This document shows positions 15,494 to 50,789 of a DNA stretch of 64,000 bases, piece by piece; position 1 is the first letter of the stretch; each line of letters begins with the position of its first letter. The position numbers and the translations under genes were made by a program. The stretch lies in the NCBI RefSeq assembly GCF_036241575.1, contig NZ_CP108455.1, positions 5,025,501 to 5,089,500 on the forward strand, in the 5' to 3' direction. Below the pieces are notes generated by a model. That model ran no database searches. It worked only from the letters and a program-made list of their open reading frames with translations, and had not been told where the DNA came from. This DNA is from Streptomyces sp. NBC_01267. GTDB taxonomy: Bacteria > Actinomycetota > Actinomycetes > Streptomycetales > Streptomycetaceae.

Positions 15494-18400
15494 TCAGTCG
15501 TTGCCGGACAGTGCGGCGAAGATCTCCGTGGACAGTGTCACGGGTGGGCCGTCCTCCTGGGACACGCCCCCCTCGTAATCGTCGTCCAGTATCTCCAGTT
15601 GGCTCTTGATGTGCTTCTCGCGTCTGGTCAGTTCCTCCGCCAGCCTCGGGGGCAGCGGCCCCGACATCCTGGCGAGTTCCACCGCGAGGAGTAGATCGGC
15701 ATGTCCCACTCCGTCCGCGCGCAGATTGAAGCCCGCAGGCACCTGATCGGTGCCGCCGTTCGTCTTCCTGTGCCAGTGCCCCACCAACTCTCGCAGGCGC
15801 TGATCCGTGAAGATGTCCAGGGGCAGGTGCGACACACCGGACCAATTCATGAAGGAGTGGAACCTCTTCTCCGCGAGGGTGGGTTCGTTACCCAGCAGTT
15901 CGTCGGCGAGGGCGTTGAACCGATCCTGCTCGCGGGCGAGGCGGACATCCTCCCGCCTCTCGCGCTCGCTGACCAGGTAGTCGTGCCCCATGGCCTCAGG
16001 CGAAAGGGGCCGCTGCCAGAAGGACTTGTCCCTGCCCAGGTTGGCAACGTCTTCCGGGCGCACATGGAGGGCGTCCGCCACCCGTGTCAGATAGCGCGGG
16101 TGCACGCCCAGCGCGTTGGCCTGGACTTCCGTACTGGGCTGAATGTACGGCAGCGGCTGGGTGCGCGAGTCGCTGTACAGCCTCTTGGCCTCGGCCAGAT
16201 TCATGCCGACCACGTGGGACATGGTGAGCTGCCTGGTGCGCAGATGCGATGAGAAGTGCCACCAGTCGAAGAGCGGCGCATCGAGTTCCGTCATCCGGCG
16301 GACGAACGCGTTTGTGGGTCCGGCCTCCAGCCGGGCGGCCAGCTGATGGAGTGCGTCGAGGGCTGGGCGGAGAGGGGCGTGGCCCTGCAGGGCGACCTCG
16401 ATGCTGCCGAGGGCGGTGGGGTGCAACCCGAGGGCCTTGGCTGCCGCGGCTGCGCGCTCGGTGCCGATGCCGATGCCGGTGCCGATGCCGGTGCCCGCGT
16501 TCTCGTTCCCGCCTGTATGCGTGTTCGTGTTCGTGTTCGTGAGCGGGACGGGCGGCTGCTGGCTTCTGTGCTGGGCCAGCAATCCCTTTACGCCCGGCTC
16601 TTCGAGCACCCCGGCCAGGGTGTTGCGGTGGAGTGAGGTCGTTACGTCCGACTGCCAGACCGGGTGCTGCTCGTGGTGCGGCTGTCCTTGCGGGGTCTGC
16701 CACCCGGCCAGTGTCTGCGGTACCGGCGGCAGCCGGTCGGCGAGGTAGAGCAGGACGTTGCTCAGACCCGACGGTCGGGTGGTGTCGACCGCCAGCAGAT
16801 CCAACAGGGTGCTCATGTCCGATTCGCCCCTCATGATGGAGTACACCTCGGAGTGGGGCGGGAGCCCCGTCTCCGGGCCCGTCGGAGAGAGTTCTACGTC
16901 GAAGCTGACCCAGCTCAGTTCGCGGCGCCGGTACGGGTCGGGCTGGCTGAGTGAGGCGGCCAGTTGCTCACGCACTACCGGCAGCTGCTGGTGGACCAGC
17001 CGGCTGTGTTCCTCCGGGCTCAGCTGTGGGTGCCTCAGGAGCCGGGTGATACGCGTCCCCAGGGTGCCGTCCCCGTGGATCACCCGCTGGATATTGAAAT
17101 TCGCCCAGGTGAGATCTGGTTTGTGCACGGAGGCAGATACGGGGGCGGTGACCGCGAGCACTTCGGAGAGGCGCGGCCAGAGCGGGGGTTGGTCCGCCGA
17201 GGGCCGGATCCACAGGTGCTCGCCGTCGCGGACGTGTCCGTGCATGCGTACGTCGTTGTACACACCCTCCCAGAGGTAGCCGCCCTCCGGGACCTCCACC
17301 CACGAACCGTTGGCGAACGCGTTGCGGTGGGCCACGACGATCGCCTCCCAGAGCTGGTGCGTCGACCAGTGGGAGGGGAAGAGCAGTTGGCCGACGGCTG
17401 CCATCCCGTCGGAGCCGAGCACGGTCCCGTTCTCACGGTCGCCGGGCTGCCATGCGAAGGGCGGTGGGGCGTTGTTGGCGGCGGCCTGTGCCGTGTGACC
17501 CTGCAGGTTCGGGTCCTTGAACCAGATGGTGGCCCACTGGGTGCCGTTCGGGTGGGCGGTCCACAGCTGCTGGATGTTGACGCCCTGGTCCAACTGCGCT
17601 GCGGTCCCGCCCGTCCCGGGCAGTGCGTAGTGGACGCCGGTCCTGTGGTGGGTGGAGCCGTACGTCACGAAATGCAGCGCGCCCTCCCCGAGCGCCGGTT
17701 CGGCGGGGGACCCGGGCATGGGGGCGAGATATTGCCAATGGTCAGGCATTTCTGGACGCGCCGGAATTTCGAGGTGGCGGGGTGCGTCGAGGCCGGCCTG
17801 GTCGGGGTGGGGAGCGAAGTCGGTGACGGTGCCCGTGCCGTCGACGGTGCCCTTGATCCGTACGCCCTGGTACTCGCCGGTGAAGTGGTAGTTCCCCGGC
17901 TCGATGCCGGGGGTGTGCTTGGTGGGTACGAGACCGCCGGTGGCCTGTTCGTGCAGATACACCTGGCGTACGGCGTACAGCGTCTCTTCGAGGGTCCAGT
18001 GGTCCGGGAAGACGGTTCGCACGCTGCCGTCGGGGTGGGTGCCCGCCTGGTAGGTGCCGTTCGGGTTGCGCTCGCCGGTGGCTACCGGGCGGGGCCGGTC
18101 GGCGGCGCCGTGCGGGGCGAGCAGGCCGACGGTTCCGGTGCGGGGGTAGCCGCGCAGGACCCGTTCCCGCACGTCGAGCGGGATGCGGACGGTGGGCTGC
18201 GGGGTGTCCCGCAGCGCCGCTCCGATCGCGGTGCCCAGCACCAGGAGGTCGCGGGGCATGATCCGCAGATACGGCGACGACGTCACCGGGATCGGGAAGT
18301 TCTGGTCGACCACGGACCGGCCGAAGAGCGGGTCGGTGTAGGCGGCGCCCATCAGCGCGTGCTCGTCGTAGACCGGCCAGTGTGCTCGTCCCTGCATGGG

Positions 18401-18862
18401 ATCCCGGTAGTAGTCCTGCAGGCCCAGGAGGTGGCCGATCTCGTGGGGCGGCATGACCGGGTCGGATGTGAGCTTCTCCACGGAGAGGTACCAGTTCGCG
18501 TCGTTGCTCCGGCCCATGCCATCGGGGTCGGGGTGCAGCGCGATGGTGTGGTGCGCCAGCTCGGGGGTGTCGACGAACTCGGCCGCCACCCGCAGCAGAT
18601 CGCCGTTCGGCAGTCGGTGGTCCGGGTCGTTGTAGTACTTCTGGAGGCCGCTGTTCGCCGAGGCCTTGGTGGCCTGGAGGAGTTCGGGGGTGACACCGTC
18701 CTTGACGTCCAGGTGGATGCGTACGGTGATCTTCGTCTCGGCGACACCGCCCTGCACCTCGGTGCGCTCGGCGCTGAACCGGCGACGCCTGATGGGTCCC
18801 GTGTAGCCCGCGCTGTTCAGGAACTCCGGGGAGGGTCGGCGGATCTCGGCTCGGTGGGTGAC
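15494..18862 (-). repeat. Giant-protein module 6 (class B, divergent metzincin)
   Basis: About residues 9366-10487. The metzincin signature is PPHEIGHLLGLQDYYRD (HExxH codons 18431-18445), with Met-turn EHALMGAAY. This is more divergent than the other five modules, which share AHETGHLLGFQD and DDHSLMSG. It continues with GTYQAGTHPDGSVRTVFPDH, GVHYALPGTGG and VRMHGHVRDGEHLW, then the helical region ending at the C-terminus. It lacks the DYSVVEIPPH leader found in other modules. Confidence 0.85.
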
Positions 18863-21800
18863 GGGGGCATGCAGGGGGGCAAGGGGCGGCGGTGGTGCGG
18901 AGGCCGACCGGCCCCGGGTGACGGGGGGCTGCGGGGTGTCGGGGGCATGTGGGACGGCGGAGGCAGGCAGGGGGGCAAGGAGCGGCGGTGGTGCGGAGGC
19001 CGACCGGCCCCGGGTGACGGGGGGCTGCGGGGTGTCGGGGGCATGCGGGACAGCGGGTGCATGCACGGGGGCAGGGAGCGGCGGCGGTGCGGAGGCCGAC
19101 CGGCCCCGGGTGGTGGGTCGCTGCGGGGTGACGGGGGTCTGCGGGGGGTTTACCGGGCTCTGCGAGAGGACGGTGGGCGGGGACTGATGAGGCCGGTGCG
19201 GGGCGGCGGACTGCTGGGCCGGGTGCGGGGCCGTGGGCGGCGTCACGGGCAGGCCGGCGTTCTGGGACAGGCCTCCCACGTACTGCGCATCCAGCTGCGT
19301 CCGCCGGTCCCGGACGCGCTGCTCGTAGGTGTCCAGGGCCTCCTCCCGGGCCGGGTCCAGCACCGGCGCCGACTTGTCGGCCAGGTGCATCAGATCGGCA
19401 TACTGCTCCCGCTCCGCGCGCGGGTCGTAATCGTCGGGCACCTGGTTGGTCCCGTCGTTCGTTTCCACCCGCCAGTGCTCCACCAGCTCTTGCAGGCGCT
19501 GGTCGGTGAAGATGTGCAGACCCTCGCTCGCGACGTCGGACCAGTGCATGAAGGAGCGGAACCTGGCGTCCGCGAGGGCGGGGTTGCTGCCCAGCAGTTT
19601 GTCGGCGACCGCGTTGAGCCGTGTGTAGCTACGGGCGAAGCGGGCATCCTCCAGCGTCTGGTGGTTGTCGAGCCCGTAGTTCCGCGCCAGGGCCTCAGGG
19701 GTGTGGGGCTGCTGCCGGAAGGTCTCGTACTCGCCCAGATCGAGGACATCTGACGGGTGCAGGTGGAGGGCGTCGGCCAGCCGTTCCAGATAATTCGGGT
19801 GCATGTCCAGGGTGTAGGCGAAGAACCGCATGTCGTCCGAAACCCGCGGCATCGGTTGGGCGCGCGAGTCTGCGTACAGCTTCTTGGCCCTGGCCGGATC
19901 CATGGAGGCCACCTTGGACAGCGTGTGCCCCTTGGTGTGCAGATACGACGAGAAGTGCGACCACTCGGAGAGCGGCACACCCACTTCCGTCATCTGTTTC
20001 ACGAGCTGGCGCGTGGACTTCCCGACGCCCAGTCGGGCGGCCAGCTGGTTGAGTGAGTTGATGGCCGTGTGGAGGGGGGTGGACCCCTGCAGGGCGGCCG
20101 TGATGCTGGTGAGGTCGGAGGGCCGCAGTTTGAGGAACCCGGCCGCCGCCGCCAGGCGATGGGGGCTTACGACCGTGTCCGTGTCGGTGTGCGTGAGCGG
20201 GCTGGAGGGTTCCTGGCCTCGGTGCTGCGCCAACAGCGCCCGTACGCCGGGCTCGTCGAGCAGCCCGGCCGGGGTGTTGCGGTGCACGGAAGTCGTCACG
20301 TCCGACTCCCAGACCGATTTCAGGACCGGGCTCTGCTCGTGCTGCGGCTGCCCCTGCGGGCCCTGCCAGTCGGCCGGCCGCTCCGACAGCGGCGGCAGCA
20401 TGCCTCGCACGCTTTGCAGGAGGGCGTCCATGCCCGCTTCGTCGATGGAGTCGACCGGCATCAGGTCCGACAGGAGGGAGCTCAGGTCCCCGTTGTTCTG
20501 CGCGATCTTGACCAGCTCGGAGTCGTCCCCGAGTTCCATCGCCGGATCTTCGGTCGGTGACAGTTCTATGTCGAAGGTGACCAGGTTCAGCTCGCGGTGT
20601 CTGTACGGGGAGAGCCGATTGAAGTCGTCGGCCAGCTGCTCACGCAGGTCCGGCAGCATCTCGTCGCGCAGGTATTCGTGGAACTCGTCTGCCAGCGGGG
20701 GATGTTCCAGGACCCGGGTGATGCGGAGCCCCAGGGTGCCGTCCTCGTGGATCACCCGCTGGACGTGGAACGGCAGCGACCCGCCACCCGGTTTGGGCAG
20801 CTGAACAGGTACGGGATCGGTGACCGCGAGCACCTTGGCAGACACGGCCGAGATCAGCGGTTGGTCCGTCGAGGGCCGGGCCCACAGGTGTTCGCCGTCG
20901 CGGACGTGGCCGTGCATGCGTACGCCGTCGTGCACGCCCTCCCAGAGGTAGCCGCCCTCCGGGACCTCCACCCACGAACCGGCGTTGCGCGCGGTGCGGT
21001 GGGCTCCGGCTATCGCGTCCCGGAGAGTGGGCAGCGACCAGTGGTGGGGGAAGAGAAGCTGACCGGCGGCGGTCATGCCGTCGGGGTTGAACACGGTCCC
21101 GTTCTCCCGGTCGCCCTGATGCCATTCGAGAGGCGGTAGGGCATTGTTGGCGGCAGCCTTTGCCGTCAGCCCCCGCAGGTTCGGGTCCTTGAACAGGACC
21201 GTGGCCCACTGGGTGCCGTTCGGGTGCGCGGGCCACAGCGATTCGATGTGGACGCCGTGCTTGCGCTGCGCGAAGGTCCCGGTCTTGTCCGGCAGCGCGA
21301 AGTGGACGCCGGTCCTGTTGGCGGTGGAGCCGTAGGTCAGGTAGCGCAGTACGACGTCCCCGAAGGCGGGATCGGCGTCGGGGCGGCGGGGCGACGGCGG
21401 TTCGAGGTGGGTGGGGGGCAGCAGCCCGCTCTGGTCGGGGTGGGGGGCGAAGTCGAGGATGGTGCCGGTGGTGTCGGCGGTGCCCTTGATGCGGACGCCC
21501 TGGTAGACGCCGTCGAAGGTCTGGCGTGTGGAGCGGTCGGGGACGGTGGTCAGGCTGTTGGTCCTGACGTGGTCGAGGTAGACCTGGCGGGTCGCGTGCA
21601 GGACCTCTTCGAGGCTCCAGTGGTCGGGGAACATGGTCCGGTCGCTGCCGTCGGGCAGTTTGCCCGCCTGGTAGGTGCCGTTGGGGTTGCGCGGTCCGGT
21701 GGGTTCGGGGCGGAACCTCCCGGCCGGGCCGCGCGGGGCGAGCAGGCCGTGGGTGCCGGTGGTGGCGCTGCCGCGCAGGACGCGGTCCCGTACGTCGAGT

Positions 21801-42800: not shown

Positions 42801-45800
42801 GCCATGATGATGCGGGTGTTCTGCTCGGCCCGACTCCGCTCACCGCTGATGTACTGGGTGAACTTGTTCCACTGCCCGCGCAGGTTGGCCCGGTCCGTAC
42901 CCGGGCGGGGGGCGACCAGCACCGAGTCGCCGTGCGTCCGGCCGATCCAGTCCAGCACCTGGTCGACGAGTACGTGCGGGGACGCCGGATCGTCGGAGTG
43001 GCGGTTGCCGATGACGAGGTCGGTGGCCCTGGTGTGTGTCAGGTCGTAGTCGCCGTTGCGCCAGCTCGCGGGCAGCGGCGGCTCGCTGCCCTCGGGGCGG
43101 GTACGGATGTCGGGGTCCCAGCCCGCCCGCTCGCGCGCCTCGCGGACCGGCAGCCGTACGAGGCTCCAGGTGTCGAGGGTCGTCTCATGGCCGTCGATGG
43201 TGACGGGGACCTTCATCTCCTGGAGGTAGAGGGCCGTCGGGCTGCCCTTCACCCGTCCGGTGATCTTGCGTCCCACGTTCCCGCCCTGGAGCGAGACCTC
43301 GCTGGAATCGTGGCTGTATTGCAGGGTGAGCCCGAGCTGCATGAAGAGGTTCGGCGCATGATCGGTCGGGATGGCGAACCGCGAGCCGCCGAAGAAGGTC
43401 ACCACGTAACGCCGGTTGTCCTGGACCAGGACCTCGTTCTTCACGGTGATCTGATCCGTGATGCGCAGCTCGGCGTCGTCCACGACCTCGATCAGATGGT
43501 GCTGGCCGGACACCGCCTTGCCCACCTCGAAGCGGCCCGCGGACGTGCCGTTGCTCTTGCGCACGTCGAGCGGCGGCAGCGGACCGCGGGCCAGCTCGTC
43601 GGCCATGCCGTGGAAGTGCTCCGTGGAGAAGTAGTCGCTGAGCTGCTGGTGTTCGCGCGTGCCCGGCTTGGCGTCGATCCTCTGGACGGCCCAATCGAAG
43701 AGCGACTTGACCGGCCCGAAGCCCTCGGTGCTCGGTGAGCCGAGGTGCGCATCGGGCTGCGGGGTGAAGTGCTTCGGGACGCGCAGCTCCGTCGCCTTCG
43801 GCACGGCGGAACCCTTGGAGACCCGGGTCGTCATCCCGTTCTTGACGCCGGTGCCGAAGGATCCCACGCCCTCCCTGTGGAACTCGACCCGGTAGTAGAC
43901 GTCCTGCCGGAAGAACTCACTGCCACCCGTCGTACGCGTCTCCCGCTGGTACGAACGCTGGTCATGGGTGCCCACGACATGCTTCTGGTTGTGGGCGGCG
44001 TTCGCGCCGACCTCCACCACCACACGGGTCGTCGACGGCAGTGCCCCCGTGTTGAGCTTGACCTGAAGGTTGGTGCCCCGGGAGGTGCCGGTGTTCGTGC
44101 CGGTCTGCTGCTGGAACTGCTGGGACGTGTCCAGCTTGTGCGGGTCGCGGGCCTCGGAGTCCGGATGGTGGGTCCACACGTCGGCGTACGGAACGGCCGT
44201 GACGGTCACCACGGTCCGCTTCGCCTTGGTGAGGCTCGCCTTGAGGGAGTTGGGGACGCTGTGCTTGGCCACGAAGCGGCGGCCCTCGCCGAGGAACGAG
44301 CTCGGGTTCCGGGCCAGCGCGTCATCGATCTGCTTGGCCAGGGCGGCGTCGGCGCGCTCGCGGCCGAGCCTGGTGTTGAGCATCGTGTGGAGCTTGCTGC
44401 CGATGCTCGCGCCCTGGCGCGGCTGAAGCAGCTTGGTGCTGCTGTGGCCTGCGGCGGAGCCGGTGGGGAGCGGAGTCGTCGGGGGACGGGGAGTTTCGGG
44501 GTTCCTGACGTACTGGATGACGTCGTGCTGCCAGAGGGGAGGACGGGGGGAGCCCTCGGCGGTGTCTCTGGGGTTGTTCTCGGGGGGCGTCAGGGTGTCG
44601 TCGTACTCGGGGTCGCCGCCCGGGTTCTCTTCGTTGGTCTGCTGGTTGGTCTGCTCGGTGATCTGGTCGTTGGCCTGGCTGTTGTTCTGTTGGTTGTTGT
44701 TCTGCTGGTCGGTGTTCTGGTTGGGCTGCTGGTTGTTCTGCTGATCGGTGTGCTGGCCGGACTGCTGCTGTTGCTGTTGCTGTTGTGCGGAGTTCTGGTC
44801 GGACTGGTCGTTCCGCAGCTGATCCGTGTCGAGTCCCGAGTTGTCCCGGTGCTCGGTGGAGACGACGTTGTCGTGGGGCAACTGCTTCGGCGGGGGCGGC
44901 GTCTCCGGAACCGTCGCGTTGGCATCAACCGTCTCCGTGACGTTGTTCGCCGTCGGCTTCGGGGCCGTGACCGACTCGTTGTTCGGCGTGAGCGACGCGT
45001 CGAAGTCGGTGGAAGTGGAAGTGGTTTCTGTCGTAGTCGGGCGACGCAGGGGCTTCAGCTCGATGTTGTTGCTGCTGCCCTCGCCATTGTTCGGCAGAAG
45101 GGGGGACTGGTTCGGACGGCGGGGCGAGGAAGCCGCATGGGGGGTGTTGGGCGACGACGCGTGGGTGGACGACAGGTTCGGCGAGGTGGTCGGTGCCGTG
45201 TTGGCCGGGGGCACGGAGGTGTTCGGTGCGCCCTGCGGGACGGGAGCGACCGGTGCCACCGGGTTCTCGGAGTGGTTCTGAGAGTTCGAAGAGTCCGAAG
45301 TGTTCGTGTGCTGAACGTCGTTCGTGTGGTTGACCGTAGGGACCGTCGAGTCCGAGGAGGTCGTCGCCACCGGCTTCACCGGCGTCACCTGGTCGTGGGA
45401 CGTGTGGACGGTGCTGGTGTCGCTGTACAGCGAATCCGTGTCGCTGTCGCTCATGTTGAAGTAATCGGGATCATCTTCCACATCGAGATGATCGAGGTGT
45501 TCGTCGAGGTCCCCGGCTACGTTCTTGTCCAGGCCCGTGGGCAGGTCCAGGTCGAAGTTCTTGTCCAGGCCCTTGTCGAACCCGCCGCCGAGCCCCGAGG
45601 TGTCGAAGTGGTGGGACATGGCATGCACGACGGGGTGGACGAGATAGACGTGGCCGCCGTGACTCAGTCCGCCGGTCAGCATGCCCGCGACGAAGGTGTC
45701 CCACGACGTGGAGAAGCCGTCCTGGTAGATCAGGTTGTAGAAACCCTCACCGAGGTTCTGGCCTATGGACTCCACGAGCAGCCCACTGCCGACCATGCCC

Positions 45801-46957
45801 AGCCGGAAGCGCTTGTTGCCCTGGAAACCCATGTGCATCAGGGTCTGGGGCATGTCATGGGCGAGCACCTTCAGGGCGTTCTTGTCGAGCGTGCTGCCCA
45901 GTTCCCTGGTGAGTTCCTTGCTGAGTGCTTCCGCCGCGCCCTTGGTCGGGCCCGACCAGTGCTCGGTGACGGTCTTGGCCCAGGTCTTGCCGATCTGACG
46001 GGACTCCTCCTTCGTGAACCCGTTGATGGGGGACTTGGCGAACTCCTTGCCCATGTTCTTGATGAAGTTCTCGGTCGTGGCCTTGGCGCCCTCCTTCCCA
46101 CCGAGCTTGGTGAAGCCCTTGGTGAGGCTGAGGTCGTGATTGCTCAGCAGCTTGGCCACGTTCTTGGCCAGGTCATTGGCTCCGCCCTTGCCCCCGACCT
46201 TCTCCAGGGTCTTGAAGAGCGTCTTCAGCTCCGTGGTGAGGAGCTTCGACAGACCCTTGCCGAGCTTGTTGCCCAGCCACTTGCCGATCCCCGGGGCGAG
46301 CAGGCTGAGCGGCCCGGTGACCAGGCCCTGGATCGCGCCGAACTTGATCGCGTCCAGCAGCAGCTTGTTGTCGAACTTGTCCCGGTTGCCCTGGCCGATC
46401 TGGACCATCTGGATGATGCGGTCCATCGCGATGCCCATGCCGACCCCGAGGGCGACGTGCTGGGCGATCCTCTTGAGCAGCTCCTTGATCAGCATCTTGA
46501 GGAACACCCGGGTGAAGAGCGTGCGCCAGCTCAGCCCCTCCAGCAGTGCCTCACCGAAGCCGGGCACCCACGAGAACGCCATGGCGTACATGAACTCGGC
46601 CAGCAGCTCGATGAGCTGGGCGAGCATCATCCATTTCGTGTACTCGGCCTGGGTCGCGGTGTCCCGGGCGGTCTTCGCCATTTGCTGGGACTGCTCCGCC
46701 GCCGCATCGAGGAACGAGTCCTTGCCGCCCGCGATGACCTGGCCCAGATTGAGGAACGCGGTGGCCGCGTCGCCCTCGAAGTTCTGCCGGATGCTCTGGA
46801 GCAGCTGTACGAGCTGGTCGTCGAGCTGCTTGTAGTCGTTGCCCACGGAGTCGTAGAGATCCGCTGCGTTGCGGAGCTCGTCCTCGTTGGCCTGTGGCCA
46901 CTTCATGCCCGTGAGGGCATGCATGATCCACTCGATCGCGGGGGAGGGCGTCAGCAT
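15494..46957 (-). CDS. Giant (10,487-aa) T7SS-type multi-metzincin repeat protein
   Basis: One uninterrupted frame encodes about 1.1 MDa. Domain order: WXG100-like helical N-terminus (1-130); amphipathic/hydrophobic helical region (130-450); acidic and Ser/Thr/Pro/Gln linker with polyQ (490-820); beta-rich region (820-2450); coiled coil (~2470-2545); OTU-like domain with DGNG at 2610-2613 and His2801; Ser/Asp repeats (~2826-2850); helical plus second OTU-like half (2860-3040); then six modules from about residue 3090 to the end. Each module has HExxHxxGxxD, with HExxH starting at residues 3256, 4545, 5727, 7068, 8290 and 9505. There is no signal peptide. The N-terminus and the upstream eccD-eccB-esx genes point to type VII export. 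The ATG at 46957 is preceded by only a weak ribosome-binding site and follows the previous stop by 13 nt. The function (surface protease, effector or matrix protein) is inferred. No frameshift or gap is visible. Confidence 0.9.
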   Translation of the reverse strand: MLTPSPAIEWIMHALTGMKWPQANEDELRNAADLYDSVGNDYKQLDDQLVQLLQSIRQNFEGDAATAFLNLGQVIAGGKDSFLDAAAEQSQQMAKTARDTATQAEYTKWMMLAQLIELLAEFMYAMAFSWVPGFGEALLEGLSWRTLFTRVFLKMLIKELLKRIAQHVALGVGMGIAMDRIIQMVQIGQGNRDKFDNKLLLDAIKFGAIQGLVTGPLSLLAPGIGKWLGNKLGKGLSKLLTTELKTLFKTLEKVGGKGGANDLAKNVAKLLSNHDLSLTKGFTKLGGKEGAKATTENFIKNMGKEFAKSPINGFTKEESRQIGKTWAKTVTEHWSGPTKGAAEALSKELTRELGSTLDKNALKVLAHDMPQTLMHMGFQGNKRFRLGMVGSGLLVESIGQNLGEGFYNLIYQDGFSTSWDTFVAGMLTGGLSHGGHVYLVHPVVHAMSHHFDTSGLGGGFDKGLDKNFDLDLPTGLDKNVAGDLDEHLDHLDVEDDPDYFNMSDSDTDSLYSDTSTVHTSHDQVTPVKPVATTSSDSTVPTVNHTNDVQHTNTSDSSNSQNHSENPVAPVAPVPQGAPNTSVPPANTAPTTSPNLSSTHASSPNTPHAASSPRRPNQSPLLPNNGEGSSNNIELKPLRRPTTTETTSTSTDFDASLTPNNESVTAPKPTANNVTETVDANATVPETPPPPKQLPHDNVVSTEHRDNSGLDTDQLRNDQSDQNSAQQQQQQQQSGQHTDQQNNQQPNQNTDQQNNNQQNNSQANDQITEQTNQQTNEENPGGDPEYDDTLTPPENNPRDTAEGSPRPPLWQHDVIQYVRNPETPRPPTTPLPTGSAAGHSSTKLLQPRQGASIGSKLHTMLNTRLGRERADAALAKQIDDALARNPSSFLGEGRRFVAKHSVPNSLKASLTKAKRTVVTVTAVPYADVWTHHPDSEARDPHKLDTSQQFQQQTGTNTGTSRGTNLQVKLNTGALPSTTRVVVEVGANAAHNQKHVVGTHDQRSYQRETRTTGGSEFFRQDVYYRVEFHREGVGSFGTGVKNGMTTRVSKGSAVPKATELRVPKHFTPQPDAHLGSPSTEGFGPVKSLFDWAVQRIDAKPGTREHQQLSDYFSTEHFHGMADELARGPLPPLDVRKSNGTSAGRFEVGKAVSGQHHLIEVVDDAELRITDQITVKNEVLVQDNRRYVVTFFGGSRFAIPTDHAPNLFMQLGLTLQYSHDSSEVSLQGGNVGRKITGRVKGSPTALYLQEMKVPVTIDGHETTLDTWSLVRLPVREARERAGWDPDIRTRPEGSEPPLPASWRNGDYDLTHTRATDLVIGNRHSDDPASPHVLVDQVLDWIGRTHGDSVLVAPRPGTDRANLRGQWNKFTQYISGERSRAEQNTRIIMAKFDERNLAATLNELAHDGLSVKLFGRSLTKQRFFDLNLKVDLAPPVYRGTDRNEMTRQAINAGERMGNSHSTTHSYGAQVAATLELRSGATLPNGTPEHIGVLGVKGGANRQHTRSTGSMGTAGREDVTATPAGVHSYRATGTLKATLVGVDQWHSPYRAVTLGRANRTLHGPATVGGHGATLGDFSVMLHLSEQHAPKVDPHAEGAFNPYATDRETTSRQLRPDETEDLWAPSEWQRGDSLKNIPVMTLFVPTDTHIQSAGPLVANRATRGEWTLTTPGTSQHERMKNAFSSMSLTSDADQVFSPTGKQLNDVRAPGFLYGATGDIRLVGRRGEPTAVGGPVDLKPEQNRSLDLAISGGDGKGWVLSIDLNAGHFPAQQTNPPTTTRYGVGYTPFQRSTMTSKGAGRTTGRSVNVVPENGYWVPVTTDAEYRFEMSSDKLGVFTPFRSALPAWTGQLVNKANAWRGLVTEQAAHALGLFRTGVDTVPSLATGAGTWSHPSWFKQSPLGVFPVSAPNGTDAGRAQFNQTLRNLRFTRNSLESIRTLLSERHGQALVEAGIPQQYRGRAPWRGFSDSLPFGGKNYRVTVQQVPGTRTVKDFGFGDVENGHSVATSNSASRGVNRSKGVSANITERITGPNGSTGGPLLNAGDSQGQSASESTSQSDTVSQTTVLPGPVATVSTSYDVVVTIVDNKGNTVLTHTWEAGSADSQEPLALLRPGGERAGDVYTVPPVSVDVLPSRNVTPGNVGRLVTDHVAGAKRPEALVPGNGVHFTRVLGSENVEALAHITLAKAQTPHLNGGHAGKGPETQGVLTGDQLVQARAKAANVKLLAPGKGGGDTLTSGTNELSLTGSLIDGSALGENGYQPLGLVDDALIGGSTGSLQLHPSFDLSGAKLLATADVRMEYATGTSESHDVGEGDSGSKNRGLGGDAIGADSHKTTYQITPVIAPGVNASEEYKFNEATAAKINMKPDTGRAFLFSVPTKWLAVAGVHRHFKDSSVGQAMIRGLNWEGFDPPGVQAGTADTEVLAWIREDVARDLGLITDTNFPEKLSGQWDDVTKGWKTWKANHDAYWSAYRPLTDLAFVVTDAKHRLEVATTPEARQAAQQALDAAQSALDEARQTAEPKLEALEQKLKLAGEHYHALRSAADALNDWHRLPENERTGTEAPEALAYDPTVEHAHGVEKPEPPAASYTEFTDDEGELLGVEDVSSGKVHPVGPVFHDGNGFFHSLAEHLVRIDPDLLAQQGIVLPENRDLTGVANDLRALFGQTLRDGGDNPLADYIHPDLTDTFERDEIRAAGLENLLDTTTPQGKEYTEGKWIPHSAGAPTVNHRAVLTPEQRTALAASQTQRPPNEKSAAKDSAGDLYPPLAAQLFGVPVTVLVDGRRHTFMPDGSEATGHEGADGVELLLKDGHYRHVDQTGNLKPPQETPSDKESEHDSVSDHDSLSDHDSLSDDGSDVEPVPGTPRPVLKVPDDAYSHLTSLLVSAPSAVGPKLPHLGQRLRSLVDSPDELRVIASAASDVEHHQDLHTLVLGMKEAVHAHVVELGARGLAMRMPHLVPQFAQGNRRAMYRAVNLMFKEVRTAVAAWEHSGDSPWSQSFLPLLADTFGVDLTVHTPPSGGNPGGSDRFRPPPGGGAPLSVHLQQNGSHFDGTTEPTARPRTESFRVPSASPNAPLHRRHTGPLEAPALVPVHKPAATPTLTTDYSVVEIPPHHSATAPQPVADVSSLGTAEILSPSDRTMDEGGAAASVWERGFAVERTLLSDGSVRSDVTVRIHLDVQPGANANHVANAKAMAKRGIDKYYNDPKHRLPNGDLLQVKLEFVFDPADAHRKVKLHPDPDGTGRDNSATWYVSEGGAGSIDKSYVIAHETGHLLGFQDQYREAKQDNPFRPVYDDHSLMSGYGIDDAGLVQFDMDHMTSDHTLSPSLRIMPRDLLLLSTAVDAAWSHTPGVGAGPHDKARAHIPLDVRERVLRGNVSTGADGLLAPRGPSGRFRPEATGPLNPNGTYRAGKRPDGTDQTMFPDHWSPDEVLHATRQVYLDHVRKNTLIPDSERSGRQNFDGVYQGVRIKGTADTTGTIIDFAPHPDQNGLLPPTHLEPPPPRELTDEPAFSDASMRFMLRGDVPTLTGVQYAQSEDRRELAQTDRGIIFEKLTDPDFNGVRRAEVWFRNPPTGPGPKTLKVGDGDSPDGVGQDGWGTNPRMLFPEEWAPGDLREAVRDAHNNALANGLFEVLPDGGYLWEGSAGGVRMQGVVKEGTHRWFRPTRFQPHPEWDAHDIAATTSETPMTYTRASGGLAEFRSSHVVFTNGDRGLNLTRVVRYSREMDPGALAELREKLSDVQDHIDDTYNTGEESKENGRLPKTRFTVELRPTSRNNPSEDGADIGTLSLHSSEDAAARLLGFDVDPDAGRQDLVRQVLEHRRPTPQSTHAWNPPNQQQGGTPNPLLTSDVEAALRRNTHAGLFDEPGVLELLAARRSQDHAPHVTKESTEAALAALTEDEFAPDYTRTPDDQLPDGWTPDRLRLAALRAARSSAPRTPDLHQPGTLTLVTTPEPGMQLTTRIDSTSLLVLGAEIVRLPQPTAPAGHTQTPAPQPGNHAPVDLNSNVTPVNPVHLAAISGALGLHPTYLRSVLPVLHQSATPSEALHTLQTLATRLDAGPQLGEFVRRMSELGVSADDWWDLSTFQHSQGDSMRSLLGPDLQQSRQRIDEWQRTEVVDTDAVTDATAHELGVHPLALTRIADALRLYSPSDITRLNMDADFWQRPATPEELALEYLAGHRTEIEELRAEIDRERFDEIADDLLGENRDEADLDYHGFLHWSRMSLEGLRHFTAAELDFLIGNWSAVRDIVPPPPNFDLADHRSELYEVEHLRNLAEFAVVRANRAQDPVALNSAQERLAQLDPYVTDHRAAMQQRLAQLWSENPMTPATPGAQTPLSHPATPTHTVFDEDIVMGEDAPVDPDGDIVMTPSPHRPHSSPHLPTPHGTTAPVHAPTPGVDYSVVEIPPHRSASVPRPEEKSLGTAEIERPSMRTVVKGGAASSVWERGFAVERTELSDGSVRSDITVRIHLDLQPGANEKHVANAKAMAKRGIDKYYNDPKHRLPNGDLLHVELEFVGNAAQAHRKVALHPDPDGTGRDDSATWYVSEGGAGSADKSHVIAHETGHLLGFQDQYREARTGRPLRPVHDDHSLMSGYGTDDAGLIQFSMDHGIYTAHALSPTLRIVPRDLLLLSTAVDTAWSHADGVGAGPLDKARAHIPLEVRDRVLRGNATTGATGLLAPRGPSGRVRPEPTTPRNPNGTYQAGKRPDGSDQTMFPDHWSPEEVLHATRQVYLEHVRTNSLTPDRIRPNRLTFDGVYQGVRIKGTAGTTGTIIDFAPHPDQSGLLPPTHLEPPAPRKLSDEPAFGDVATRFLTYGSTADRTGVHYTLPGPNGALAQNQHGVFIEPLWPAHPNGTQWATVWFKDPNLREQTVRALANGAPPPPALHRGDRENDAMVGLDGEVATPHLLFPSDWSTHRLLDSIVEAHRNARGNGSWVEVPEGGYLWEGVHDGVRMHGHVRDGEHLWARPSTDQPPSPDHSSKVFAVTAPVDFEMPRPGTTPAPFRVQRVIHLDGSLGMRITRVLSHPALSPEQSNELAGPLREVQLQVGAELNRPDPRAHRELSLITFDVELAPTDDPAMTEYSPELSNIATDFFNPNIVQDLMVLDLNDQEAVNTFLRTAADRLPPVSELPAGWQGPQGQPHHEQAPAWKSDVTTSVRRNTLAGLLDEPGVKALLAQHRGQEPPGPLTNTDTHTTDTSADTHTNTTDTSAGTHTVGAGSGAGTHTDRMAAVADALGLQPSDLTSIESALKGSALIRPALDALDQLAARLDAGPAGPFVKRMTELDVPLSEWWDFSSYLHTKRASMSDMVALDQTWVQPVLDDSRAHPVPNVSAETSAQAHALGVHPRYLTRLADALKVGPEDVALLGKRKPFWQQPLSPEALGQKVRAELDSEREKREDARLARDHRRFDDAADELLGSRSTRTEEEFRSFMHWSTVAHLGLDVLPDQRLRELVGHWRLETNDGTAPVPADFDPRKAGKPQAELLHMVALAHRSGPLPQKLEKALARRDADIKAQLTLLDLWHEGDVHQDDGPPVTLPTAPNPAQSSSTQQHASPNVPLHTPHASPHRAPAPTPTPTLTPAVDYSVAPLPPAPRPRPVTDVRSLGTAEIRRPSRLTQRLGGAAASVWERGFAVERTELSDGSVRSDITVRIHLNPQPGANENHVANAREMAQRGVDTYFNVPNHRLPNGDLLRVRLEFVDNPAQAHRRVRLHPDPDGTGRDDSATWYVSDDGEDGADKSHVIAHETGHLLGFQDHYREAEPGEPFRPVYDDHSLMSGYGIDDAGRVQFDMDYMGPSQQISPTLRVAPRDLLLLSTAVDAAWSHTPGVGAGPHDKARAHIPLEVRDRVLRGNATTGATGLLAPRGPSGRVRPEPTTPRNPNGTYRAGKRPDGSDQTMFPDHWSPEEVLHATRQVYLDHVRTNSLTPDRIRPNRLTFDGVYQGVRIKGTAGATGTIIDFAPHPDQRGLQPPTHLEPPPPRELSDEPAFSETSMRFVLRGDPSTLTGVQYAHSEDRRELAQTDRGIRFDKLSDPDFNGVRRAEVWFRNPPTGPGRAILKIGQGDSPEVITHDGLGSHPRTLFPEVWTPGDLREAVRDAHDNALANGLFEVLPDGGYLWEGSAGGVRMQGVVKDGEHRWFRPTRFQPHPEWDAHDIAATTSETPMTYARASGGLADFRVSHVVFANGDRGLNLTRIVHYPRGMDPLALAELREKLSDVQDHIDDTYNSPEEANENGRLPKTRFTVELRPTKRPGQREDGADIGALSTQSTEDAAAQLLGLDVDPDAGRQDLVRQVLEHRRPVPQSTDSWDAPHEQGGTPNPLLTSDVEAALRRNTHAGLFDEPGVLELLAARRSQDHAPHVTRESTEAALAALTEDDFAPDYTRTPDDQLPDGWTPDRLRLAALRAARSSAPRTPDLHQPGTLTVVTTPEPGMQLTTRIDSTSLLVLGAEIVRLPQPTAPAGHTQAPGTHPNDPVTPVPPVTPVSPIGSVTHVNPVHLDAVSRALGLTPAQLHTALPVLHHAATPSEALHALETLAKRVGSGPQVGRFVRRMSELQVPAADWWDLSSYLTGRGESMLHVLGPYTPEVQRRIDEWRLSDVTHTDEATRTTAHELGVHPLALTRIARAVRLPSPSDVTRLTVDADFWQRPVPPEELALEYLVGHRTEIENLRAVIDRDRFDEVADDVLGPERHDMGESDLDYHRFLYWTGVAHEGLRPFSAIELDFLVGNWAPYRDTGPQPPPGFDPALYRRHLDELEHRRNLAKFAAVEAGRARDRTALDRARATLNQLRPYVTRHRADLRLRLAQLWSQNPMTPATPGAQTPPATPGAPTPPAQPAAPTHPVADEDIVMGEDAPVDPDGDIVMTPSPRLLHQSPPNVPPQSNSHVDGTTEPPLIEPNSSPSTPFHTQQTGPQEPPVPTLTPTLTPAAKYAVVELPPAPLPKPVIDVKSLGKAEILPPSARSRARGGAAASVWERAFAVERTELSDGSVRSDITVRVYLDVQPGATPNHVANAKEMAERGIDTYYNAPNHRLSNGDLLRVKMEFVDDPAQAHRKVRLHPDLDGKGRDNSGTWYVSEGGKNAKDKSYVIAHETGHLLGFQDQYREAKEGRPPRPVHDDHSLMSGYGIDASGLIQFDMDHLASSGQLSPTLRIVPRDLLLLSTAVDTAWSHAPGVGAGPHDKARAHIPLDVREQVLRGNVSTGATGLLAPRGPSGRFRPEPTGPRNPNGTYQAGKRPDGTDQTMFPDHWSPEEVLHATRQVYLDHVRTGSLTADRKLSGRQTFDGVYQGVRIKGTADTTGTIIDFAPHPDQNGLLPPTHLEPPPLRKPTDDPAFGDVALRFVAYGSAHSRTGVHYMLPGKVGTRARESQSILISELWTAHPNGTQWAQVWFKDPNLRGRTAQAVTTGAPAPSEWRFGDQESRHVLGADGTANSGQLLFPDRWSVSDLRNAIVEAHRGARSSGAWEEVPEGGYLWEGMHDGVRMHGHVRDGEHLWVRPSSDQPPLPHSSPEILASTAPLEFSAPKPDGTTALFSIRRVIHQDGTLGMHVTRILPHPSLDPGVHSRLVDEQLPKVSKQLAAEFNRPDPNGRRELGLITFDVKLSPTDDPKIKIPRRSELFQIMMDNADTDTLTDLMTVDATDPVRLADLLRDMADHLPPVSELPTDWQGPQGQPHHEQDRVWTSDVATSVRRTRARLLDEPGVKGLLEQHRSQESAPGPLTNTSTSTHTGGAENTAAGTATATDRRNAAAESLGLAPSDLTSIEMALKGSGPLRPALDALDQLAARLEAGPTGPFVRRMTEIGSPLSEWWSFSSYLHTKKGLLSDVVSMDLTGARKMLNDSRNHPPAPTSYETDIQAYALGLHPNYLTRLADAVKVRPEDVAKLGEDKSYWQQPLSPETLGQNYRDREREKQEDIRTARDRTRFNTVADQLLGADPTRAEERFRSFTHWSEAARHLGLNVFTDQRLRELAEHWQVETNSGTNPVPANFDPRKDGKVRADLLLTEELAKRSGEPLPPKLVKDLADFEWFIQFQLTNLDARYSGGVTQNATPSVTPATDPHSTQSTTTQSASTQSTTTQSASTQSASTQSASTQSTSNQPHNSPNLPLHTPHASPHKAPASTPTPALTPTPTADHPVTDVPTAPIAPTPTAHYSVVEIPPHPSAPVPHPAPVTDVRSLGTAEVLPPSDLTRTKGGAAASVWERAFAVERTELSDGSVRSGITVRIHLDLQPGATENHVANAKAMATLGIDTYFNVPKHRLSNGDLLHVKLEFVNDSAQAHRTVKLHPDPDGTGRDDSGAWYVSESGAGGKDKSHVIAHETGHLLGFQDQYREATEGEPLRPVHDDHSLMSGNYIDESGLLQFSMDHLATEGELSPTLRIVPRDLLLLSTAVDTAWSHADGVGAGPHDGARAHIPLDVRDRVLRGSATTGTHGLLAPRGPAGRFRPEPTGPRNPNGTYQAGKLPDGSDRTMFPDHWSLEEVLHATRQVYLDHVRTNSLTTVPDRSTRQTFDGVYQGVRIKGTADTTGTILDFAPHPDQSGLLPPTHLEPPSPRRPDADPAFGDVVLRYLTYGSTANRTGVHFALPDKTGTFAQRKHGVHIESLWPAHPNGTQWATVLFKDPNLRGLTAKAAANNALPPLEWHQGDRENGTVFNPDGMTAAGQLLFPHHWSLPTLRDAIAGAHRTARNAGSWVEVPEGGYLWEGVHDGVRMHGHVRDGEHLWARPSTDQPLISAVSAKVLAVTDPVPVQLPKPGGGSLPFHVQRVIHEDGTLGLRITRVLEHPPLADEFHEYLRDEMLPDLREQLADDFNRLSPYRHRELNLVTFDIELSPTEDPAMELGDDSELVKIAQNNGDLSSLLSDLMPVDSIDEAGMDALLQSVRGMLPPLSERPADWQGPQGQPQHEQSPVLKSVWESDVTTSVHRNTPAGLLDEPGVRALLAQHRGQEPSSPLTHTDTDTVVSPHRLAAAAGFLKLRPSDLTSITAALQGSTPLHTAINSLNQLAARLGVGKSTRQLVKQMTEVGVPLSEWSHFSSYLHTKGHTLSKVASMDPARAKKLYADSRAQPMPRVSDDMRFFAYTLDMHPNYLERLADALHLHPSDVLDLGEYETFRQQPHTPEALARNYGLDNHQTLEDARFARSYTRLNAVADKLLGSNPALADARFRSFMHWSDVASEGLHIFTDQRLQELVEHWRVETNDGTNQVPDDYDPRAEREQYADLMHLADKSAPVLDPAREEALDTYEQRVRDRRTQLDAQYVGGLSQNAGLPVTPPTAPHPAQQSAAPHRPHQSPPTVLSQSPVNPPQTPVTPQRPTTRGRSASAPPPLPAPVHAPAVPHAPDTPQPPVTRGRSASAPPPLLAPLPASAVPHAPDTPQPPVTRGRSASAPPPPLAPLHAPVTHRAEIRRPSPEFLNSAGYTGPIRRRRFSAERTEVQGGVAETKITVRIHLDVKDGVTPELLQATKASANSGLQKYYNDPDHRLPNGDLLRVAAEFVDTPELAHHTIALHPDPDGMGRSNDANWYLSVEKLTSDPVMPPHEIGHLLGLQDYYRDPMQGRAHWPVYDEHALMGAAYTDPLFGRSVVDQNFPIPVTSSPYLRIMPRDLLVLGTAIGAALRDTPQPTVRIPLDVRERVLRGYPRTGTVGLLAPHGAADRPRPVATGERNPNGTYQAGTHPDGSVRTVFPDHWTLEETLYAVRQVYLHEQATGGLVPTKHTPGIEPGNYHFTGEYQGVRIKGTVDGTGTVTDFAPHPDQAGLDAPRHLEIPARPEMPDHWQYLAPMPGSPAEPALGEGALHFVTYGSTHHRTGVHYALPGTGGTAAQLDQGVNIQQLWTAHPNGTQWATIWFKDPNLQGHTAQAAANNAPPPFAWQPGDRENGTVLGSDGMAAVGQLLFPSHWSTHQLWEAIVVAHRNAFANGSWVEVPEGGYLWEGVYNDVRMHGHVRDGEHLWIRPSADQPPLWPRLSEVLAVTAPVSASVHKPDLTWANFNIQRVIHGDGTLGTRITRLLRHPQLSPEEHSRLVHQQLPVVREQLAASLSQPDPYRRRELSWVSFDVELSPTGPETGLPPHSEVYSIMRGESDMSTLLDLLAVDTTRPSGLSNVLLYLADRLPPVPQTLAGWQTPQGQPHHEQHPVWQSDVTTSLHRNTLAGVLEEPGVKGLLAQHRSQQPPVPLTNTNTNTHTGGNENAGTGIGTGIGIGTERAAAAAKALGLHPTALGSIEVALQGHAPLRPALDALHQLAARLEAGPTNAFVRRMTELDAPLFDWWHFSSHLRTRQLTMSHVVGMNLAEAKRLYSDSRTQPLPYIQPSTEVQANALGVHPRYLTRVADALHVRPEDVANLGRDKSFWQRPLSPEAMGHDYLVSERERREDVRLAREQDRFNALADELLGNEPTLAEKRFHSFMNWSGVSHLPLDIFTDQRLRELVGHWHRKTNGGTDQVPAGFNLRADGVGHADLLLAVELARMSGPLPPRLAEELTRREKHIKSQLEILDDDYEGGVSQEDGPPVTLSTEIFAALSGND
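18850..19160 (-). repeat. ~93-96-bp tandem repeats in the Pro-rich linker before module 6
   Basis: The coding unit PHAPDTPQPPVTRGRSASAP followed by PPLLAPLPASAV occurs about three times in tandem. This Pro/Ala/Ser/Arg linker separates modules 5 and 6. The copies are very similar in DNA, so slippage or unequal crossing-over is likely. Confidence 0.8.
18863..22592 (-). repeat. Giant-protein module 5 (class B)
   Basis: About residues 8123-9365. Leader HYSVVEIPPHPSAP, LGTAEVLPPSD, then VIAHETGHLLGFQDQYREAT (HExxH codons 22076-22090) and Met-turn DDHSLMSGN. Class B marks: GVHFALPDKTG and NGTQWATVLFKDPNLRG. It ends in a long Pro-rich linker with 31-32-residue tandem repeats. Confidence 0.85.
22593..26245 (-). 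repeat. Giant-protein module 4 (class B)
   Basis: About residues 6905-8122. Leader KYAVVELPPAP, LGKAEILPPSA, then VIAHETGHLLGFQDQYREAK (HExxH codons 25742-25756) and DDHSLMSGYGID. Class B marks: GVHYMLPGKVG and NGTQWAQVWFKDPNLRG. The linker at its end contains TQSTTTQSAS-type repeats. Confidence 0.85.
22738..22862 (-). repeat. 15-30-bp TQSAST/TQSTTT repeats
   Basis: Encodes repeated STQSTTTQSASTQSTTTQSA units in the linker before module 5. The DNA repeat TGACTGAGTGGAAGC recurs in tandem. Confidence 0.8.
26246..30262 (-). repeat. Giant-protein module 3 (class A)
   Basis: About residues 5566-6904. Leader DYSVAPLPPAPRPRP, LGTAEIRRPSR, then VIAHETGHLLGFQDHYREAE (HExxH codons 29765-29779) and DDHSLMSGYGID. 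Class A marks: GVQYAHSEDRRELAQTDRGI, MQGVVKDGEHRWFRPTRFQP, TTPEPGMQLTTRID and the linker EDIVMGEDAPVDPDGDIVM. Confidence 0.85.
30263..33815 (-). repeat. Giant-protein module 2 (class B)
   Basis: About residues 4382-5565. Leader DYSVVEIPPHRSAS, LGTAEIERPSM, then VIAHETGHLLGFQDQYREAR (HExxH codons 33311-33325) and DDHSLMSGYGTD. Class B marks: GVHYTLPGPNG and NGTQWATVWFKDPNLRE. Its linker contains a Thr/Asp/His-rich THTNTTDTSAGTHT stretch. A patch is almost identical in DNA to module 3. Confidence 0.85.
33816..37690 (-). repeat. Giant-protein module 1 (class A)
   Basis: About residues 3090-4381. Leader DYSVVEIPPHHSAT, LGTAEILSPSD, then VIAHETGHLLGFQDQYREAK (HExxH codons 37178-37192) and DDHSLMSGYGID. 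Class A marks: GVQYAQSEDRRELAQTDRGI, TTPEPGMQLTTRID and the linker EDIVMGEDAPVDPDGDIVM. Confidence 0.85.
38550..39150 (-). other. OTU-like domain lacking the nucleophile (within the giant gene)
   Basis: About residues 2600-2810 of the giant protein. HDGNGFFHSLAEHL resembles the OTU peptidase motif DGNCLFxAL, but Gly2613 (codon 39119-39121) replaces the nucleophilic Cys. The C-terminal VELLLKDGHYRHV resembles the OTU catalytic-His end (His2801). A second OTU-like C-terminal half (LADTFGVDLTVHTP, LSVHLQQNGSHFDG) follows about 200 residues later. The fold assignment is inference; the missing Cys is seen directly. Confidence 0.55.
44580..44850 (-). repeat. Poly-Gln and Asn/Gln-rich tract in the giant gene
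   Basis: About residues 703-793 encode SAQQQQQQQQSG followed by repeated DQQNNQQPNQNTDQQ units. It links the helical N-terminal part to the beta-rich region and is expected to be disordered. Confidence 0.9.
45590..46957 (-). other. WXG100-like / channel-type N-terminal domain of the giant protein
   Basis: Residues 1-130 (WPQANEDELRNAADLYDSVG, QNFEGDAATAFLN) resemble the WXG100-like N-terminus of CpnT-type type VII substrates, with FEG in place of WXG. Residues 130-450 are long amphipathic helices with hydrophobic stretches (LIELLAEFMYAMAFSW, HVALGVGMGIAMDR). This is the best evidence for T7SS targeting. Confidence 0.7.
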
Positions 46958-46970: not shown

Positions 46971-47297
46971 TCACTTGGAGTCGTTCGACCAACTGGTCGC
47001 GAGTGACTTGGCTTCGTCCTCGACCCGGTCGAACAGGGCCATCACGTCGGATCCCGAGTACCCGACCTGTTCGACCAGGGTCTTGAGCAGGGTCAGCAGG
47101 TCGTGCAGGTGCTTCATACCGGGGTCGATGGTCTCGTGGTACTGCTTGGCGATCTCGTCGTCCTGGCCGCCGCCATCGATATTGATCTTGTCGATCTGGG
47201 CCAGGTAGTCGCCGATCTGCTTGATCAGCTCCCCGATCTGCGGGTACTGGGCGAACTGCTGCTTGAGCTGGTCGATGGTGGTGATCTTCTCAGCCAT
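46971..47297 (-). CDS. Small helical T7SS-associated protein with YxxxD motif
   Basis: A 108-residue, almost entirely helical protein (TTIDQLKQQFAQYPQIGELI, MKHLHDLLTLLKTLVEQVGY). After the second long helix comes GYSGSDVMALFD. YSGSD fits the YxxxD/E general secretion signal of T7SS substrates. It lies 13 nt before the giant gene and overlaps the YbaB-family gene by 8 nt. Position and size suggest an Esx/EspC-like partner or chaperone for the giant protein. Confidence 0.75.
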   Translation of the reverse strand: MAEKITTIDQLKQQFAQYPQIGELIKQIGDYLAQIDKINIDGGGQDDEIAKQYHETIDPGMKHLHDLLTLLKTLVEQVGYSGSDVMALFDRVEDEAKSLATSWSNDSK

Positions 47298-47796
47298 CCG
47301 AGGTACCGCCCTTCCCCTTGCCCGTGCCGTTCCGCCCGGTGCCCGGTGTGCCGCCGGACGCCTTGCCTGTGCCCTTCCGTCCGGCGCCCGGTGTGCCGCC
47401 CGGCCCCTCGGGGCCCGGCCACATCTCCCGCAACGGGCCCATCAGGTCGTCGAATTCGCTGCCGCCCGTCATCGACTTGCGCATGGCGGCGCCCGCTCCC
47501 TGGAACGGCATCATGGTCTCGCGGACCTTCTGCCCGGCCTGCTCCCTGGCCTGCCCGATGACCTCGACCAGCGCCGCGCCCAGTTCGGCGGGCGCCATGT
47601 CGCGGTACGCGTTCGTATGGAACTTGATCTCCCGCACGTCGCCCTGGGCGCCCGCGACGACCGTCAGCATCCGGTCCTTCGACTGCACGGTGACCGTGTA
47701 CTTGGCCAGCTCCCGCTGGGTCGCGAGGAGGGAATCGCGGTGTTCCGCGAGCTTTCCCATCATCTCGTCGAGCTGTTCCTGGAATCCGTTACCCAT
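47290..47796 (-). CDS. YbaB/EbfC-family protein (EspL-like)
   Basis: A 168-residue protein. The core (residues 1-105) is a YbaB-type fold: long helix EQLDEMMGKLAEHRDSLLAT, strands TVTVQSKDRMLTVVAGAQGD, REIKFHTNAYRDM, and helix LGAALVEVIGQAREQAGQKV. The C-terminal ~50 residues are Gly/Pro/Lys repeats (GTPGTGRNGTGKGKGG). YbaB homologues recur in ESX loci, where EspL stabilises other secreted proteins. Its ATG overlaps the stop of the upstream gene (TGATG), indicating tight coupling. Confidence 0.83.
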   Translation of the reverse strand: MGNGFQEQLDEMMGKLAEHRDSLLATQRELAKYTVTVQSKDRMLTVVAGAQGDVREIKFHTNAYRDMAPAELGAALVEVIGQAREQAGQKVRETMMPFQGAGAAMRKSMTGGSEFDDLMGPLREMWPGPEGPGGTPGAGRKGTGKASGGTPGTGRNGTGKGKGGTSDG

Positions 47797-50432: not shown

Positions 50433-50434
50433 GG

Positions 50435-50719: not shown

Positions 50720-50789
50720 GTCCGGTCGTCCTTTCAGGAGGTGTGGGAGGGGGTGAAGAGGCAGAGCTGGCAGGCGGGTCGGCCGAGGA

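Follow-up and report, generated by a model that had tools for sequence, protein, structure and literature searches.

A giant type VII secretion-linked Streptomyces protein with an array of six predicted metzincin cassettes

We analysed a 64,000-nucleotide stretch of the genome of Streptomyces sp. NBC_01267 (contig NZ_CP108455.1, positions 5,025,501 to 5,089,500; hereafter the window), in which a single frame encodes a giant protein beside the genes of a type VII secretion system (T7SS). The source genome measures 8.07 Mb in three contigs and contains one EccB match. A first-pass annotation, made from the letters alone, had proposed an intact 31.5-kb frame carrying six zinc-protease modules behind a WXG100-like export domain, within an eccCDB/esx/mycP locus. 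Pfam located EccB, EccC, EccD and a subtilase in the window and placed a WXG100-type domain at the N-terminus of the giant above its cut-off (Table 1). The protein has two of the features expected of a T7SS substrate, a WXG100-type N-terminal domain and linkage to a secretion machine.

Reading of the frame found zero internal stops across its 10,487 codons. The guanine-plus-cytosine (GC) content at the three codon positions is about 0.7/0.5/0.9 in each of the 20 slices of 500 codons, as is typical of translated genes in Streptomyces; the slices cover residues 1-10,000 and have the last 487 residues outside them (0.61/0.37/0.92 in residues 1-500). The longest exact DNA repeat inside the frame is 86 bases, which makes an assembly stutter unlikely. 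The nearest named relative, Streptomyces sp. A 4/2 (99% in module 2), also carries all six modules, spread over three contigs that break inside the repeats; compared in 100-residue pieces the two proteins are mostly 99-100% identical (minimum 82%), with about 70 and about 50 residues absent between the A 4/2 contigs. Taken together, the lack of stops, the coding-like GC and the six modules of A 4/2 confirm that the frame is intact.

Self-comparison of residues 3115-10487 divided this part of the chain into six modules, with boundaries set by us, each a cassette of 1,122-1,339 residues headed by a metzincin. Within a cassette the metzincin is followed by two EndoU-fold domains, then by a truncated metzincin that lacks HExxH, and last by a helical domain. 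The zinc motif HExxHxxGxxD is present in all six metzincin copies (residues 3256, 4545, 5727, 7068, 8290 and 9505), exactly at the codons first reported. Ahead of the cassettes, a Gln/Asn/Ser/Thr-rich stretch (about 480-830, by eye) precedes a carrier region and then a region that we label OTU-like (residues 2561-2860). The latter had no match in the Pfam scan of the giant, and it reads DGNGFF where we take OTU peptidases to have Cys; with Gly in that place, it is presumed to be inactive.

The Met-turn sequence is LMSG, or LMG in the sixth module; in modules 1 and 6 a count by eye puts its Met 31 residues past the first His. Across 18 metzincin copies from four strains, 53 of 206 ungapped columns are invariant; these include the motif H, E, H, G and D and the Met-turn Met. 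The six window domains score 224-273 bits against a family profile built with these same six. The first-pass annotation had named structure prediction as a check, and AlphaFold2 with Foldseek returned a metzincin fold (best match 2xs3_A, E 5.5e-5). On zinc motif, Met-turn and fold, the last of these predicted, the domains can be assigned to the metzincin clan. The best fold match is supplied by karilysin and the matrixin matrix metalloproteinases (M10), but identity to these is only 11-17%, and the third zinc ligand, His in those enzymes, is Asp in the window.

The snapalysin (M7) identity suggested at first pass fared less well. Snapalysin is a stand-alone secreted enzyme that has HExxHxxGxxD and a Met-turn in common with the window domains, and the fold matches to it (4hx3, 1kuh) show 21-23% identity over 114-115 columns; its solved chains differ in being 132-134 residues long. 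On module 2 the NCBIfam snapalysin model, which has a cut-off of 300, reached 15.5 bits, leaving the identity unsupported. Pfam M7 (PF02031, cut-off 25) gave 33.3 bits on residues 4701-9500, which span several modules, and 19.0 bits on residues 1-4700, and was not listed for module 2 alone. Over the giant as a whole, EndoU_bacteria domains recur past the N-terminus and M10 and M7 matches are weaker. The same genome encodes an SSI-family inhibitor (G000:C1:4087868-4088098, 50.3 bits); sermetstatin, an inhibitor of snapalysin, belongs to this family, and the complex 4hx3 is among the fold matches.

The second halves of the cassettes fall into two types, A in modules 1 and 3 (59-93% alike) and B in modules 2, 4, 5 and 6; A and B halves are mostly 21-48% alike where they match. 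By contrast, the metzincin and first EndoU part are about 74-87% alike among modules 1-5; the metzincins of these modules are of type I, and that of module 6, of type II, matches them at 44-51% over the domain. Because first halves are alike and A and B halves divergent, we infer that the former have been homogenised across modules or the latter swapped.

The EndoU_bacteria model scores 49.6 bits on module 2 (cut-off 25.3), but the catalytic His-His pair is not kept in the EndoU-like domains, as read from an alignment. In the CdiA-CT STECO31 EndoU toxin (5HKQ), the catalytic residues are H187 and H204 beside K261 (PMC9086364); the equivalents of H187 and H204 are not both kept in the window, in a comparison that covers the His pair. 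Domain 1 has GLLA where several relatives carry GGHL, DGHL or GAHL and others have Arg. Domain 2 has the second His at most (TGVHY or TGVHF in type B, TGVQY in type A), and the alignment places no His about 17 residues ahead of it, the spacing being that of H187 and H204 in PMC9086364. The truncated metzincin of module 2 was recognised by a profile-profile match to metzincins (94.8% probability, E 4.9e-8); its single-profile scores are weak, 4.9 bits at best. Of the proposed six potentially active zinc proteases, the complete active-site motifs stand, but the unit of repetition is the cassette and not the protease alone.

Relatives were sought in Streptomyces, as the first-pass annotation had advised, and metzincin profile matches were found in 41 of 246 genomes (E <= 1e-10), with at most 12 candidates scored per genome, so that metzincin counts are lower bounds. 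Across the class, at least 15 of 394 genomes, in 8 of 137 genera, had matches at E <= 1e-8 with at most seven candidates scored per genome. In 33 of the 41 Streptomyces genomes a related metzincin has EccB no more than 60 kb away, by a comparison that used 50 of 74 metzincin places and covered every genome; we estimate the chance expectation at about 1-3%, taking one or two loci at random positions in 8-10 Mb. Several of the 8 remaining genomes have their metzincin match on a contig without EccB. Frames of more than 3,000 codons hold 44 of the 50 places, the longest being of 19,630 codons, and in 31 of 41 genomes a WXG100_2 match falls in the same frame as a metzincin (lists compared by hand). 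Among the matches listed, 11 of 41 genomes have at least two such metzincins in one frame, and six, held by the window, is the most in any frame. A search with residues 1801-2860 returned six proteins (two partial), none with a metzincin above zero bits, which implies that the carrier exists without proteases too.

Several of these giants differ in build. The 19,630-codon frame (L046-L048, G133:C17:1913-60802) far exceeds the window giant in size and combines WXG100_2 with three HExxH-bearing metzincin-like domains of different subfamilies. A second giant frame, of 18,430 codons, has WXG100_2 at G023:C1:2222612-2222971, in a genome that also contains a five-module relative of the window protein. 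In G109 (L054-L055), an 8,590-codon frame bears five near-alike metzincin copies (HELTHQLGLRDEYRD), probably an independent tandem expansion. In Kitasatospora, giants recorded as 'EndoU domain-containing' (P0002-P0007) share PF25547 (five of six), EndoU (PF14436; six of six) and the same metzincin family, in 2-4 intact copies each. They differ from the window giant in length (5,534-7,165 residues, some records partial), in a motif that mostly ends DEYR and in having 30-33% identity over the searched region, and P0002-P0004 differ further in carrying degenerate metzincins beside intact ones (P0002 909-1052 and 2478-2621, P0003 887-1032, P0004 1715-1852), with HEIGR for HExxH or the HE lost. Our results suggest that the database name 'EndoU domain-containing protein' misnames the active part of these relatives.

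Module number varies between strains in the series 1, 2, 5, 5, 6, 6. Collinear orthologues with one module (G133:C8, 4,539-codon frame), two modules (SID10853, 5,351-codon frame) and five modules (NBC_01306, 9,011 residues; G023, 9,014 residues) stand beside the six-module proteins of the window and A 4/2. In 100-residue pieces, NBC_01306 is 96-98% identical to the window protein over residues 1-400, 46-89% up to about 2830 and 83-100% over about 2930-5540; beyond about 5540 its modules pair with other modules of the window. The order of metzincin types is I, II, II, I, II in G023 and I, I, I, I, I, II in the window. The shifted mapping and the differing type order indicate that cassettes have been duplicated and exchanged, and they show, at the level of sequence, that these units multiply and are recombined from one strain to another. 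In this way the array seems to lengthen and to be rearranged, much as an interchangeable kit of weapons or tools would be.

We estimated the ratio of nonsynonymous to synonymous substitution rates (dN/dS) by the Nei-Gojobori method with bootstrap ranges. EccB has a dN/dS of 0.19-0.21 between the window and three strains, whereas the median is 0.53 for type I metzincins (55 pairs, 11 copies) and 0.92 for type II (21 pairs, 7 copies), and the top type II pair reaches 1.68 (bootstrap 1.16-2.76). Because codon bias lowers dS in all genes compared, the contrast with EccB outweighs the absolute values. By this measure, the metzincins are shown to change several times faster than EccB while their active sites stay fixed, and fast change round an invariant active site would fit an arms race or changing substrates.

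Our preferred reading, to which we give slightly more credence than doubt, is that the giant is a T7SS-exported multi-protease effector that acts outside the cell, its modules diversifying with their active sites kept. Family and place suggest that the WXG100-like N-terminus, with small Esx-like partners and EccB, EccC and EccD, would direct the chain out of the cell. There, each of the six cassettes would offer a zinc metzincin, with motif residues seen directly and fold predicted. Being without catalytic residues, the EndoU-like domains and truncated metzincins may have a binding or structural role. Pro/Ser/Thr-rich linkers between the cassettes could be cut by the metzincins or the subtilase, freeing protease units of about 120-145 kDa; alternatively, the cassettes would stay together as a string. 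In an arms race against rivals, prey or inhibitors, the diversifying cassettes might act as weapons or as tools of digestion.

Several results weigh against this interpretation. The C-terminal half of the metzincin model, which holds the Met-turn, is of low confidence, and TM-scores normalised by query length are 0.23-0.38. Motif residues are lost in some copies of the Kitasatospora relatives and of G245, in which Phe replaces the Gly of the motif. A bootstrap lower bound above 1 is seen in one of the 21 type II pairs and in none of the 55 type I pairs, and the closest metzincin orthologues (W1/NBC1, W2/NBC2) have a dN/dS of 0.26-0.27. Other parts of the locus are also fast: the N-terminus and carrier of the giant (0.27-0.73) and, above the Ecc genes, 47796-49880 (0.43-0.55), 50004-50432 (0.33-0.56) and, at its highest value, 46971-47297 (0.18-0.85). 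A fast locus or relaxed constraint therefore explains the rate equally well as positive selection. Among the neighbours scanned, none gave a Pfam match to a known immunity family. Finally, passage of a 10,487-residue chain through a T7SS would be a puzzle, and both export and proteolysis are predictions.

The chief rival, which we consider unlikely, is a self-processing polyprotein in which the metzincins are releasing peptidases that free the EndoU-like and helical domains and are not themselves the payload. The metzincin is indeed the first domain of each cassette, and one survey describes releasing peptidases, including caspase-like arrays with dead copies, that precede payloads in polymorphic toxins and are proposed to set several products free (PMC3482391). 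However, the supposed payloads are without the EndoU catalytic His pair (residues as in PMC9086364), the metzincin active site is kept in 18 of 18 copies, and a single releasing protease would suffice where six are kept.

A classic polymorphic toxin aimed at rival bacteria also strikes us as improbable; here the 555-residue protein just downstream, which has one hydrophobic segment, would confer immunity by protecting the producer on its outer face. In favour of this reading, giant proteins of the kind in actinobacteria have been classed with polymorphic toxins (PMC3482391). The C-terminal 320 residues of the neighbour matched in 17 of the 41 genomes searched, our own included. In five of the 41 (G000, G023, G133:C8, G143, G166) the match lies downstream of the giant at about 4 kb or less (distances by hand), and A 4/2 and NBC_01306 likewise have the protein close to the giant. 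The other 12 of the 17 genomes carry the match away from the giant or on a different contig, at 32-37% identity, and the remaining 24 of the 41 gave none; with so scattered a distribution, the neighbour could be a general surface protein. Pfam gave no match to it, and the want of a known immunity family among the scanned neighbours tells against this rival as well. The neighbour may be an immunity, anchor or accessory protein and is a candidate partner.

Still less probable, in our view, is a giant surface or matrix scaffold, in which enzyme-like domains serve as binding folds and proteolysis is incidental. In each cassette three domains, two EndoU-like and one truncated metzincin, are predicted to be dead, and metzincins are degenerate in Kitasatospora P0002, P0003 and P0004, but all 18 copies, from four strains, keep the same zinc-motif residues and Met although no more than 53 of the 206 columns are invariant. 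Assembly stutter of one module, or an untranslated frame, is hardly credible, since, although similar tandem repeats assemble poorly and the A 4/2 contigs break there, the data in hand already contradict it: the modules are too divergent, no exact repeat exceeds 86 bases, an independent strain has six, and codon GC is coding-like over residues 1-10,000.

The multi-protease effector reading may tentatively be extended to a combinatorial repertoire, in which one exported chain carries strain-specific paralogous metzincins with diversified residues round a fixed active site. Cassette duplication would drive the expansion from one to six, recombination would reshuffle the copies, and a single secretion event could release several specificities, or differing resistance to inhibitors, those of the SSI/sermetstatin family for example; the dead EndoU and truncated metzincin folds would serve anew as docking parts.

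Among the other genes (Table 1), we name the 694-residue protein PPE/EspB-like from its place in the locus. The protein at 50435-50719 resembles WXG100/ESAT-6 below the cut-off (TIGR03930, 28.8 bits against 44.85). Adjoining the T7SS genes, 60754-63969 (-) encodes a right-handed beta-helix joined to AAA domains (Pfam Beta_helix, AAA, AAA_lid_6), presumably an EccA-type AAA protein fused to a beta-helix. Two adjacent 348-residue frames at 6781-8864 (+), with GC below most of their surroundings and no Pfam match, are maybe a recent arrival.

Table 1. Positions of the giant protein, its parts and neighbouring genes in the window.
Feature	Position	Strand	Description
Giant T7SS-linked protein	15494..46957	-	10,487 residues, ATG start, one uninterrupted frame
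WXG100-like export domain, residues 8-148	46514..46936	-	Pfam PF25547, 50.6 bits, cut-off 27
Carrier region, residues 831-2450	39608..44467	-	BLAST to other Streptomyces giants, some without metzincin match
OTU-like region, residues 2561-2860	38378..39277	-	Sequence and homologues
Module 1 (type A), residues 3115-4404	33746..37615	-	Metzincin 36908-37612
Module 2 (type B), residues 4405-5586	30200..33745	-	Metzincin 33038-33745
EndoU-like domain 1 of module 2 (example)	32669..33058	-	
EndoU-like domain 2 of module 2 (example)	32102..32599	-	
Truncated metzincin of module 2 (example)	31790..32065	-	N-terminal subdomain only, no HExxH
All-helical domain of module 2 (example)	30440..31354	-	AlphaFold2 model, secondary structure
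Module 3 (type A), residues 5587-6925	26183..30199	-	Metzincin 29495-30199
Module 4 (type B), residues 6926-8149	22511..26182	-	Metzincin 25472-26173
Module 5 (type B), residues 8150-9365	18863..22510	-	Metzincin 21806-22510
Module 6 (type B body, type II metzincin), residues 9366-10487	15497..18862	-	Metzincin 18167-18862
555-residue protein, next gene downstream of giant	13746..15413	-	Ala/Glu/Pro-rich N-part, one hydrophobic segment (by eye), C-terminal domain
108-residue protein directly upstream of giant	46971..47297	-	Present in 3 of 3 strains compared
YbaB/EbfC-family protein	47290..47796	-	Pfam, 45.4 bits
694-residue protein	47796..49880	-	Gly/Pro/Gln-rich C-part
Three small proteins	50004..51203	-	Middle one 50435-50719
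EccB	51249..52754	-	Pfam PF05108, 327.6 bits
EccD	52811..54199	-	Pfam PF19053, 284.3 bits, plus YukD
EccC (FtsK/SpoIIIE ATPase)	54262..58449	+	Pfam PF01580, 279.3 bits
Subtilase, MycP-like by family and place	59520..60713	-	Pfam PF00082, 90.6 bits

To our knowledge, the cargo of Streptomyces T7SSs is poorly known. The run from one to six copies in otherwise collinear giants offers a natural comparison by which to ask what purpose the array serves; it bears on how 10,000-residue chains pass a T7SS and on whether proteases, beside nucleases and pore formers, serve as T7SS weapons.

The first-pass annotation knew of no described system of this kind. As regards the metzincin array this holds, in that the open-access literature we searched gave no description of such arrays in gigantic actinobacterial proteins; it does not hold for giant multi-peptidase toxins, which have been in print since 2012 (Zhang et al., PMC3482391), and there are other giants that bear between one and five such metzincins. 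That paper describes SACTE_5178 of Streptomyces sp. SirexAA-E, of 13,652 residues, and a related Streptomyces protein with repeated caspase-like domains, some without catalytic residues (PMC3482391). Likened by description, such giants and the window protein are Streptomyces chains of more than 10,000 residues with several peptidase- or toxin-type domains each. The described giants carry anthrax-lethal-factor-like (ALF-like) metallopeptidase, caspase, ART, MCF1-SHE and OTU domains; ALF-like metallopeptidase, caspase, ART and MCF1-SHE are absent from the whole-chain Pfam matches of the window giant, although some such domains may have no Pfam model. In place of that mixture, the window giant has a near-uniform array of one metzincin cassette. 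What is already known from that description is the existence of gigantic actinobacterial multi-peptidase toxin proteins (PMC3482391); what appears new here, against the open-access literature searched, is the metzincin cassette array.
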